DNA of 32,638 nt from Candidatus Roizmanbacteria bacterium (GTDB lineage Bacteria; Patescibacteriota; Microgenomatia; UBA1406; GWC2-37-13). Of this stretch, positions 108 to 22,345 are shown piece by piece; position 1 is the first letter of the stretch, and the number at the start of each line of letters is the position of its first letter. The notes below the pieces were generated by a model. The model made no database searches, was not told the origin of the DNA, and saw only the letters and a program-made list of their open reading frames with translations. Made by a program: the position numbers and the translations under genes. The stretch spans positions 1 to 32,638 of the forward strand of contig CABIKN020000078.1 of NCBI GenBank assembly GCA_902200405.1, read 5' to 3'.

Positions 108-551
108 TTAGGCGTCAATCATTGTCCTTTCCTTCTGTCTTCTTTTATGATCCCAATGCATTTGCCAGTGGCCAATTTTTAATCCTGAAGAAATAAATAT
201 ATCTGCGAATAAATCTTCAAAAAAATGATTGATATTTTCGTTATTTAATAAGTCTCCAATTATTTCGATTAATTTTGTTTCTTTATCATAAAAAAGTAGT
301 GAGAATTTGGCAACCGTAGCTCTTGAACTTTTTAAATATCTTGCAATTGTTGAATGGTCAACACCTTTCAATAAAAGATAAATGATCGCAATCCTTTTGG
401 CGACCATCAATTGTTCGGGTGGGGAAAGAATATCTTTTACTATTTCAAGAAAATCATCTTTATCATCTGCTTTATTTAATATTTCAAACATTAACTGATT
501 AATTTTAATCAGTTTTTTCTCATCAACATATTTTTTTGTCAGATTAACCAT
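108..551 (-). CDS. TrpR/YerC-like transcriptional regulator (copy 1)
   Basis: Predicted DNA-binding protein of the Trp-repressor superfamily, 147 aa. The core with LSPPEQLMVAKRIA (about residues 42-55) and the helix-turn-helix (about 54-85, recognition segment SSRATVAKF) match the YerC/YecD type. A C-terminal tail of about 45 residues (FFEDLF..., GHWQMHWDHKRR) is longer than in ordinary YerC proteins and is shared with the paralogue at 11626. The frame is open to a TTG at 581, but those ten extra codons are the operator palindrome itself, so the ATG at 551 is preferred. No Shine-Dalgarno sequence is seen. The gene is flanked on both sides by TCGATTAATCGA-type sites, which suggests autoregulation. 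Ligand and targets are unknown; binding of tryptophan is not implied. Confidence 0.85.
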   Translation of the reverse strand: MVNLTKKYVDEKKLIKINQLMFEILNKADDKDDFLEIVKDILSPPEQLMVAKRIAIIYLLLKGVDHSTIARYLKSSRATVAKFSLLFYDKETKLIEIIGDLLNNENINHFFEDLFADIFISSGLKIGHWQMHWDHKRRQKERTMIDA

Positions 552-631: not shown

Positions 632-659
632 CTTTACACACTGCTTTTTTTATTGTCTA
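631..659 (-). promoter_or_regulatory. Predicted promoter of TrpR-like copy 1
   Basis: On the minus strand, -35 TAGACA (659-654), 17-bp spacer, -10 TAAAGT (636-631) preceded by TGTG. The -35 box lies inside the 28-bp sequence shared with copy 2, and the -10 region has the same TGTG lead-in as in copy 2. Confidence 0.5.
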
Positions 660-680
660 CCGCTTATAACCTACAAAAGT
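653..680 (-). promoter_or_regulatory. Conserved 28-bp upstream box (copy B)
   Basis: Minus-strand sequence beginning ACTTTTGTAGGTTATAAG and ending CGGTAGACAA. It matches the box at 11566-11593 at 27 of 28 positions, although the downstream operators and the proteins differ. It carries the presumed -35 hexamer TAGACA. Confidence 0.7.
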
Positions 681-736
681 GAGGAATTAGATTATCAGAA
701 AAGGATTATTTTGCTGATATATGTAAGTATTTTTAT

Positions 737-11470: not shown

Positions 11471-11565
11471 TTTTTAAAAATCTCGCTTTTAATCTTTAAT
11501 CTACTTAGAATGAATGATAAAATGTCTTTCAGTAATAATTTATTCTTACAGCAATCTAAATATAT

Positions 11566-11593
11566 ACTTTTGTAGGTTATAAACGGTAGACAA
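11566..11593 (+). promoter_or_regulatory. Conserved 28-bp upstream box (copy A)
   Basis: Begins ACTTTTGTAGGTTATAAA and ends CGGTAGACAA; 27 of 28 positions match the box at 653-680 (minus). It holds the -35 hexamer TAGACA at 11587-11592. The sequence diverges immediately outside it. Confidence 0.7.
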
Positions 11594-11614
11594 AAATATA
11601 CTACTGTGTAATAT
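11587..11614 (+). promoter_or_regulatory. Predicted promoter of TrpR-like copy 2
   Basis: -35 TAGACA, 16-bp spacer, -10 TAATAT preceded by TGTG. The -10 is the centre of the palindrome, so a bound repressor would block it. Confidence 0.5.
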
Positions 11615-11627
11615 TACGAAGTAGTAT
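11598..11627 (+). promoter_or_regulatory. Operator palindrome upstream of TrpR-like copy 2
   Basis: 30-bp near-palindrome with arms ATACTACT / AGTAGTAT and centre GTAATATTAC. It covers the -10 box and the first two bases of the start codon. A matching palindrome follows the gene at 12072-12099. Confidence 0.65.
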
Positions 11628-12063
11628 GATAAGAATCTCTTACTTTAAAATAAATGAGCGAGATTATGAAAAAATATTTTCTATTTTTTATAAGATTTTA
11701 GGCGAATCACAAAATAAAAAGGAATTCAGCAAAATTTTGTTTGATCTCTTAACTCCAGCTGAACGAATTATGCTTATAAAACGTATAGCTGTAATGTATT
11801 TACTACTAAAAGATATTAACTATTTAACTATTTGCGAAGTTTTAAAAGTTTCGAATGGTACCGTAAGCAAATATAAACTATTAATGGAAGACAGTAAGGG
11901 AATCGTTCCTGTCCTAAACAAGATGATAAAAATTGAAAAAGTGTGGTTATTTTTTGAAGAAATATTCAGTCATATTTTTCACCCAGGTAAGATTGGCATA
12001 AACTGGAAAGATGCTTGGAAGATTAGAATGGACTTAGAACGCAAAAAAGAAAAAGGAATGTAA
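11626..12063 (+). CDS. TrpR/YerC-like transcriptional regulator (copy 2)
   Basis: 145-aa Trp-repressor superfamily protein, paralogue of the one at 108-551. LLTPAERIMLIKRIAVMYLLL (about residues 41-61) is followed by the helix-turn-helix with recognition segment VSNGTVSKY (about 75-83), which differs from SSRATVAKF in copy 1. The same extended C-terminal tail is present (FFEEIFSHIF, NWKDAWKIRMDLERKK). No ligand pocket can be read from the sequence. The start codon overlaps the upstream palindrome and there is no Shine-Dalgarno sequence. It lies 155 bp after the protease gene with its own promoter. Probably an autorepressor; other targets unknown. Confidence 0.85.
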   Translation: MIRISYFKINERDYEKIFSIFYKILGESQNKKEFSKILFDLLTPAERIMLIKRIAVMYLLLKDINYLTICEVLKVSNGTVSKYKLLMEDSKGIVPVLNKMIKIEKVWLFFEEIFSHIFHPGKIGINWKDAWKIRMDLERKKEKGM

Positions 12064-12071
12064 ATTTCATT

Positions 12072-12099
12072 CACTACTCCGTAATATTAGAGAGTAGTG
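12072..12099 (+). promoter_or_regulatory. Operator-like palindrome downstream of TrpR-like copy 2
   Basis: 28-bp near-palindrome (12 of 14 arm positions pair): CACTACTC...GAGTAGTG around a TAATATTA centre. It starts 8 bp after the stop codon and shares arms and centre with the upstream site. No U-run follows, so it is not a typical terminator. Confidence 0.6.
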
Positions 12100-21481: not shown

Positions 21482-22345
21482 ATGACTAACATTATTGTTA
21501 TTGTTGGCCAGACTGCCACAGGTAAAACAAAACTTGCCTTAGAACTTGCCAAAAAGCACAATGGAGAATTAATTAATTTTGATTCTCGTCAAATCTATAA
21601 ATATTTAGATATCATTACTGGAAAGGATATTCCGAAAAATAAAATCTGGCTTTATGATATTGTAACTCCTGATCAATATTTTTCTTCTTTTGATTTTGTG
21701 AAATTAGCAACTCCAATAATTGAAGATATAAGTAAACGGGGTAAAACCCCTATATTAGTTGGTGGAACCTATCTTTACTTAAAACATTTGCTATACGGAA
21801 TTGATAATAACAATAACCCTCCTGATTTTAAACTTAGGGCAGAACTTGATGACAAAACAGTCCAAGAGCTCCAGCAAATTCTAAAAACAGTTTCACTTCA
21901 ATCGTTTAATCGATTGAACCACAGCGACGTGAATAATCCACGTCGACTAATTCGTAAGATTGAAATTGCCTTAACCGACTCGACTGATTTAACTGACTCT
22001 GAACGATTATATCTGATTCCAGCTGATTTTATCCGTTTTCATCCCACAATAATTGGCCTCAGATATAAAGATAAAAATAAACTCCGTGAAGTAATTACTA
22101 AAAGGGTGGAGAACAGACTCAAAACTGGTGCCATTGAGGAAGTAAAAAAACTTTTTAAAATGGGTTACGATGAAAACGATCCTGGTTTAAAAACCATTGG
22201 CTATCAACAAATAATTAAGTATTTAAATAAAAAGTTTACAAAAGAAAAAACAATTGAAGATTGGATAAATAAAGAAGTACAATATGCTAAACGTCAGCTA
22301 ACATTTATGAAGAAAGATGAAAATATAAGTTGGAGGGATATTTAA
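21482..22345 (+). CDS. miaA: tRNA dimethylallyltransferase
   Basis: 287 aa. Adds the isopentenyl group to A37 of tRNAs reading UNN codons. P-loop VGQTATGKTKLALELA (about 8-23), NFDSRQIYKYLDIITGKD, VGGTYLYLKHLLYG, and the C-terminal TIGYQQI and YAKRQLTF blocks are in family order. Small in-frame repeat LTDSTDLTDS at about 163-172 (DNA 21971-22004). The DNA at 21901-21914 is an exact operator core of the TrpR-like regulator at 108. The stop overlaps the convergent riboflavin kinase gene by 4 bp. Confidence 0.94.
   Translation: MTNIIVIVGQTATGKTKLALELAKKHNGELINFDSRQIYKYLDIITGKDIPKNKIWLYDIVTPDQYFSSFDFVKLATPIIEDISKRGKTPILVGGTYLYLKHLLYGIDNNNNPPDFKLRAELDDKTVQELQQILKTVSLQSFNRLNHSDVNNPRRLIRKIEIALTDSTDLTDSERLYLIPADFIRFHPTIIGLRYKDKNKLREVITKRVENRLKTGAIEEVKKLFKMGYDENDPGLKTIGYQQIIKYLNKKFTKEKTIEDWINKEVQYAKRQLTFMKKDENISWRDI
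21901..21914. promoter_or_regulatory. Exact operator-core match inside miaA
   Basis: ATCGTTTAATCGAT, identical to the 14-mer at 590-603, and part of the near-palindrome CAATCGTTTAATCGATTG (21899-21916). It may be a binding site or coincidence. Confidence 0.35.

Follow-up and report, generated by a model that had tools for sequence, protein, structure and literature searches.

A gene for a TrpR-like protein at position 11626 of the window (the whole 32,638-nucleotide stretch analyzed here, contig C78 of the 1.18-Mb draft genome G000) is framed by palindromes of a single type, one before its start and one after its stop. An earlier note had read this gene and a paralogue in the same window as self-addressed regulators that duplicate and then change their operators, and had named a mobile unit of the REP/RAYT kind as the alternative. 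The locus raises the question of what such paired palindromes are for, and whether they serve a single gene.

The cassette and its palindrome pair

The cassette consists of the following features.

11626-12063, forward strand: TrpR-fold DNA-binding protein of 145 aa (Pfam Trp_repressor, AlphaFold model, PDB matches)
11598-11627: upstream palindrome ATACTACTGTGTAATATTACGAAGTAGTAT, a putative autoregulatory operator, over the -10 and up to the start codon
12072-12099: downstream palindrome CACTACTCCGTAATATTAGAGAGTAGTG, of the upstream copy's type (sequence, shuffles)
11523-11593, forward strand: competence-like promoter box of ~70 bp, with a TCTTTCA block, a AGCAATCTAA block, TTTTGTAGGTTATAA and a -35-like TAGACA
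11587-11614, forward strand: sigma70-like promoter, -35 TAGACA at 11587-11592 and -10 TAATAT at 11609-11614, predicted from sequence only

The palindrome pair described in the earlier note was recovered at the same coordinates. The upstream copy reaches the ATG, the downstream copy begins 8 bp past the stop, and the two are identical at 23 of 28 positions. Their palindrome scores are 9 and 8, and a scan of the whole window found none higher. For CACTACTCCGTAATATTAGAGAGTAGTG, the best score among 30 shuffles was 5, and an equally good match was present in 1 of 47 other upstream regions. The -10 element falls inside the centre of ATACTACTGTGTAATATTACGAAGTAGTAT; because the palindrome covers the promoter, autorepression is the plain reading. 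The predicted mRNA is possibly leaderless.

Pfam scores for the Trp_repressor domain were 31.2 bits for the 145-aa protein and 31.4 bits, above the cut-off of 27. The AlphaFold model of the 145-aa protein has a mean pLDDT of 75, with the C-terminal part less certain, and its top Foldseek matches are TrpR or TrpR-like structures (probability 1.00, TM-score by target 0.76), at weak E-values of 0.02 and above. With the curated NCBIfam model TIGR01321, which tests for TrpR/YerC equivalogs, the window protein scored 17.9 bits against a cut-off of 67.25. The C-terminal extension of the protein is conserved in the family. On either side of the gene lie an S41 peptidase gene and hisS; these two names, like all gene names below without a Pfam or structure match, were read from the sequence.

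The second gene of the window, copy 1, has the following features.

108-551, reverse strand: copy 1, a paralogue from another clade (Pfam, family tree)
653-722, reverse strand: competence-like promoter box 5' of copy 1
559-631: upstream palindromes of copy 1, TTATCGATTAATCGATAA at 559-576, TGTAACATCGTTTAATCGATCATACA at 584-609 and TTGATTAACCGATTAATCAA at 612-631
54-106: downstream palindromes of copy 1, of the CGATTAATCG type, at 54-73 and (TGTATAATCGATTAAACGATGATACA) at 81-106

As had been claimed, the palindromes of copy 1 differ from those at 11626, forming a CGATTAATCG-type set instead, and the recognition-helix segments of the two proteins differ as well (VSNGTVSKY versus SSRATVAKF). Both genes carry the ~70-bp upstream box, which the earlier note had overlooked. 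The box model matches it with E=1.9e-17 at 11523-11593 and E=2.2e-19 at 653-722, both sequences being part of the model's training set. The start of the contig (window 1-45, taccgtttatagaccc) also resembles part of the box, with a model match worse than E=5.

A family with clade-specific palindromes

Genome G000 has 11 Pfam matches to Trp_repressor, 9 of them over the cut-off; seven of the matches are extended paralogues of 143-148 aa. Across the genus, 15 of 20 genomes have a match, and we read about 48 full-length members; the member list and the site types were chosen after looking at the data. These genomes are drafts that are 76-97% complete, so little weight can be put on a gene's absence. 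The close relatives of the 11626 gene belong mostly to Candidatus Roizmanbacteria (Microgenomates group, Patescibacteria).

Paired flanking palindromes in other members of the family had been set beforehand as the test of the earlier reading. We found that 30 of the 48 members have a palindrome pair of their own that matches at 80% or more, compared with 4% of non-own pairings. The mean similarity of upstream and downstream copies was 0.80 within members and 0.59 to those of other members (z=17; none of 20,000 permutations was as high). On the family tree, the palindrome type is clade-specific, with ACTTCATTATATTAATATAATGAAGT, ACTTCAATCGATTAAACGATTGAAGT, ACTTCGATGTATCGATACATCGAAGT and ACTACAATTAATTAATTAATTGTAGT as examples; the members include some of ACTTCAATCG and CGATGTATCG type. 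The palindromes are typically about 26 bp long, and many clades share the ends ACTNC...GNAGT. In two clades the upstream copy lies before the box, replacing or adding to the promoter copy, and about 10 of the 48 members have no clear upstream copy within 130 bp. Relatives in Daviesbacteria, in Nomurabacteria and in a further Microgenomates genome, at ~27-33% identity, keep the pair. The part of the earlier note's proposal that concerns a paralogue family with one layout and clade-specific palindromes is borne out: the upstream and downstream copies change together, and the layout persists even in Nomurabacteria.

Because the two copies co-vary, we infer that each family protein is specific for one palindrome type. 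Similar recognition-helix sequences pair with different palindromes; for example, the SPSTVAKF and SPSTIAKF clades have different ones, and no simple rule leading from helix to palindrome was found among the members.

Three other origins were considered and rejected. Chance palindromes are excluded by the shuffles and by reversed-pattern controls. An invertible cassette is contradicted by the orientation of the gene to the box, which is identical in all members. As to a viral origin, IMG/VR contained neither a relative of the protein nor an exact copy of the box.

A shared promoter box

In 25 genomic copies, the ~70-bp box upstream of genes has sharp edges of conservation and ends in TTGACA, and over all boxes a conserved -10 sits ~17 bp after the TTGACA. 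The box is present at essentially all full-length members, with a weak match in G010 and partly decayed upstream blocks in a few. A model trained solely on 41 TrpR boxes matched 3-36 copies in each of the 20 genus genomes. Exact-pattern counts had suggested that half of the genus is without the box; the model search overturned this by finding variant boxes in all 20 genomes. The sequence varies by species group, ending ...GGTTATAAGCGGTTGACA in one and ...GCRTATAGTCYATAGACA in another. A general genome promoter is rejected as an explanation, since the 1.18 Mb contain no more than 23 exact cores.

According to Pfam, the genes after the box include recA, comEA (SLBB + HHH), comM (Mg_chelatase), radC and LTD proteins, as well as Y1 transposases (RAYT), a PaaX-type protein and an AAA_14 protein. 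Reading of open reading frames alone adds TIR, NYN, toxin-antitoxin, four-helix-bundle and small membrane proteins. A promoter common to late competence and recombination genes is the mark of a competence regulon, and recA, comEA, comM and radC share one here; judged by gene content, the box genes probably form a competence-like regulon.

Patescibacteria account for much of bacterial diversity, and hardly any of them can be cultivated. A limited search of open-access text found no competence regulon or self-DNA marking system described in them, and we know of none; the box motif offers a testable marker of such a competence-like regulon.

Two further observations concern the genes behind the box. 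Predicted membrane proteins of 60-70 aa recur there (L158, L166, L169, L177, L180, L186, L192 and others); the single member tried (L158) had no Pfam match. Several RAYT-like (Y1_Tnp) genes per genome also stand behind it (L162, L171, L183 and other loci).

Dispersed copies of the palindromes

We searched the genus for further copies of four clade palindromes and one variant, and Nomurabacteria for one type. All types searched have copies away from the regulator gene, mostly in conserved genes, and one such copy lies in the window.

21895-21920: dispersed palindrome ACTTCAATCGTTTAATCGATTGAACC of another clade, inside miaA, identical to that clade's palindrome at 24 of 26 bases and coding for SLQSFNRLN

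Extra copies are present in most genomes that have the cognate gene and in few others; for three types the association gave Fisher values of 1e-3, 2e-4 and 1e-3, at thresholds picked after seeing the counts. Reversed-pattern controls were zero, apart from a single genome in one of the searches. In an unbiased scan covering 392 kb from one genome, 29 strong palindromes (score at least 11) were recovered where ~1.7 were expected, almost all of them TrpR types or GTAG-tagged REPs. Copy number is low, ~1-17 sites per genome and type, with at most 19 matches. The description of the regulators as self-addressed alone is not right: palindromes of the matching type are also dispersed elsewhere, mostly inside conserved genes.

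Of the 101 catalogued dispersed TrpR-type sites, 70 lie in coding sequence; of the 31 intergenic ones, 12 are flanked by convergent genes and 5 by divergent genes. The concentration at promoters that is seen in a classical transcription-factor regulon was not found among these sites. Since they are found inside genes and at the ends of genes, and only rarely at evident promoters, a role as addresses fits them better than a role as operators.

A conventional repressor family is the main competitor to this reading. Here the proteins would be autoregulated and, in a competence-like state, would act as intragenic roadblocks on housekeeping genes, as a brake on growth. The palindrome over the -10 of the gene's own promoter is in keeping with this, as are the several targets in translation or cell-wall genes (queA, miaA, rsmI, lysS, fmt, murD and mpl, names partly by sequence reading) and some intergenic sites near gene starts, for example in the tuf-uvrD region and upstream of a YerC-like gene, which are expected of a regulator. 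Yet the position along the gene is arbitrary (one site is at codon 453 of 776), the intergenic sites between convergent genes are hard to reconcile with it, and the targets further include glycosyltransferases, an LTD protein and uvrD, so that a common theme is absent. We consider this explanation somewhat unlikely.

It is very hard to credit that the palindromes are RNA hairpins only, serving as terminators or mRNA stabilisers, with an incidental likeness of upstream and downstream copies. Many intergenic copies do lie close behind a stop codon, and the downstream cassette copy often has T-rich flanks. A hairpin, however, requires complementarity and not the same sequence upstream, downstream and at unlinked loci, and the upstream copy covers a promoter. 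Moreover, one palindrome type uses three reading frames inside genes, so selection seems to be on the DNA and not on the peptide.

At three loci shared between two species the site is 88-92% identical and the flanks 63-75%. The Nomurabacteria genome has four dispersed copies, one of which is in a LysS-like gene, ~1.5 codons from the Roizmanbacteria site in a pairwise alignment. In two draft genomes (G006 and G013) sites are present and the cognate gene was not found; G013 carries five palindromes of the CTAC(T/A)GTCTAATATTAGAC type (L235, L372-L375), with no TrpR-like paralogue detected. No his or trp operon gene was recognised among the genes in the site catalogue, and the cassettes that were read do not stand beside trp or his biosynthesis genes.

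Palindrome types switch at fixed positions

At six gene positions the palindrome type differs from species to species, and the codon register is usually the same. In queA, four types occupy one position (in G015, in G016, in G017/G019 and in G005/G009), and G010 has an apparently decayed palindrome there. Three types were found in rsmI, four in a glycosyltransferase (LGGGEK), and two or more in each of an NMNAT-like gene, a second glycosyltransferase and the end of a cca-like gene. The register is identical in 31 of 44 homologous site-gene pairs of differing type, although these pairs are not independent. G008 has a dialect: the palindrome at the regulator's own gene is shifted, and the sites in mpl, uvrD and a glycosyltransferase show the same shift.

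We know of no described bacterial binding-site system in which the position is conserved while the type switches in place, and these address sites are testable objects. As the paralogues share a promoter, a palindrome type at an address can give way to another, and this would account for the switching at fixed codons. Interchangeable repressors on one promoter would permit it as well.

The same positions bear on the idea of a REP/RAYT-like mobile unit, in which the palindromes would be the ends of an element together with scattered miniature versions of it, mobilised either by the protein or by a RAYT transposase. REPs are GTAG-tagged palindromes associated with Y1 transposases (PMC2817692, PMC3733652), and the points of likeness are these: a gene flanked by two palindromes, cognate dispersed copies as in RAYTs (PMC2817692), and several types per genome. 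RAYT genes also stand behind the same promoter box, and GTAG-tagged repeats occur in the same genome. Against this, synteny is kept within clades; for the 11626 gene, most other species with its clade have homologous neighbours on both sides. The TrpR-like protein has no nuclease, transposase or Y1/HUH domain (Pfam, NCBIfam, Foldseek), and its palindromes lack the GTAG head, starting with ACTNC or varying. REPs have a GT(A/G)G head, are mostly extragenic and are abundant, whereas the sites here are few and most lie in place within coding sequence, where one position is re-used by different types.

Where this was checked, sites inside genes also add no length. In 13 genomes, queA is of equal length with or without a TrpR-type site; the QueA site aligns ungapped to a homologue of known structure, RsmI shows against a known structure a one-residue gap after the site, and MiaA a small gap, only after the site. 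By comparison, an in-frame GC-rich REP-like hairpin at the same spot of queA does lengthen QueA in two species (G014 and G006; L315, L316). The alternative offered by the earlier note is not supported for these cassettes, in view of conserved synteny, the lack of a catalytic domain and the unchanged length in the genes compared. A RAYT-like mobile unit is unlikely, and we hold it highly improbable that the palindromes are the ends and miniatures of such an element.

As a separate observation, G015 (L381-L400) commonly shows palindromes with a GTAG tag (GTAGAGACAAGGC..., GTAGGGAACAAAAA...), 12 of 15 being inside predicted coding sequence.

A possible address function

Our preferred reading, which we would put at an even chance, is that the cassettes encode autoregulated, type-specific TrpR-fold proteins whose dispersed sites serve as genome addresses in a competence-like state. 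The proteins, presumably dimeric and each with one palindrome type, would be transcribed from the common competence-like promoter. Judging from the anatomy of the cassette, each would bind both the palindrome that overlies its promoter and the one that follows its stop codon, perhaps bridging the two, and so limit its own expression. It would also bind the dispersed copies, whose observed positions are for the most part within conserved genes or at the ends of genes and rarely at evident promoters. In the last and least certain step, these copies would act not as classical operators but as addresses for recognising the cell's own DNA, for recombination or for organising the chromosome.

A stronger form of this proposal, which we advance tentatively and expect to be wrong rather than right, is a competence-linked address code in which several orthogonal TrpR-fold proteins in each cell, all expressed from one competence-like promoter, mark the bacterium's chromosome at fixed places in core genes. 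If it is true, long-term selection acts on the place, whereas the palindrome type found there is exchanged between species, and the sets of types could serve as dialects for telling self from non-self or for recombination. Patescibacteria are thought to live on the DNA of other cells.

Comparison with known systems

The putative addressing system of TrpR-fold proteins and palindromes is apparently undescribed. In its logic, its closest analogue is the dialects of DNA uptake sequences, which vary by species round a common core, have intragenic sites in permissive positions and are linked to competence (PMC3630211). The two are also alike in that a stop codon in some frames limits placement, and in that some sites are at gene ends (PMC3630211). 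They differ in that the palindromes here are ~26 bp long, are of several types per genome and number in the tens, with at most 19 matches per type and genome where uptake sequences have thousands. The binder here is a predicted intracellular TrpR-fold protein and not a pilin, and any role in uptake is speculative.

Chromosome-organising proteins such as those of ParB/parS, Noc, MatP/matS and SlmA have a dedicated binder and dispersed palindromic sites that lie largely within genes. Unlike them, the family described here has several orthogonal paralogues in a genome, switches type at a single address and has a competence-like promoter. These pairs of protein and palindrome, of one fold and differing specificity, are a natural set for learning protein-DNA recognition.

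The TrpR fold itself is common to this family and to the TrpR/YerC (HisR) repressors (PF01371, TIGR01321, TIGR02531). HisR has a 20-bp palindromic motif with a lineage-specific consensus and is frequently autoregulated (PMC9413887). The present family is set apart by its C-terminal extension, by paralogues that number up to 7-8 per genome and differ in their palindromes, by the second palindrome after the stop and by the dispersed intragenic sites. Shorter relatives occur beside it: contig C34 of G000 has two short TrpR/YerC-like genes without the box (L001, L002), and a ACTACATTATA-type palindrome lies 21 bp upstream of a short YerC-like gene in G017.
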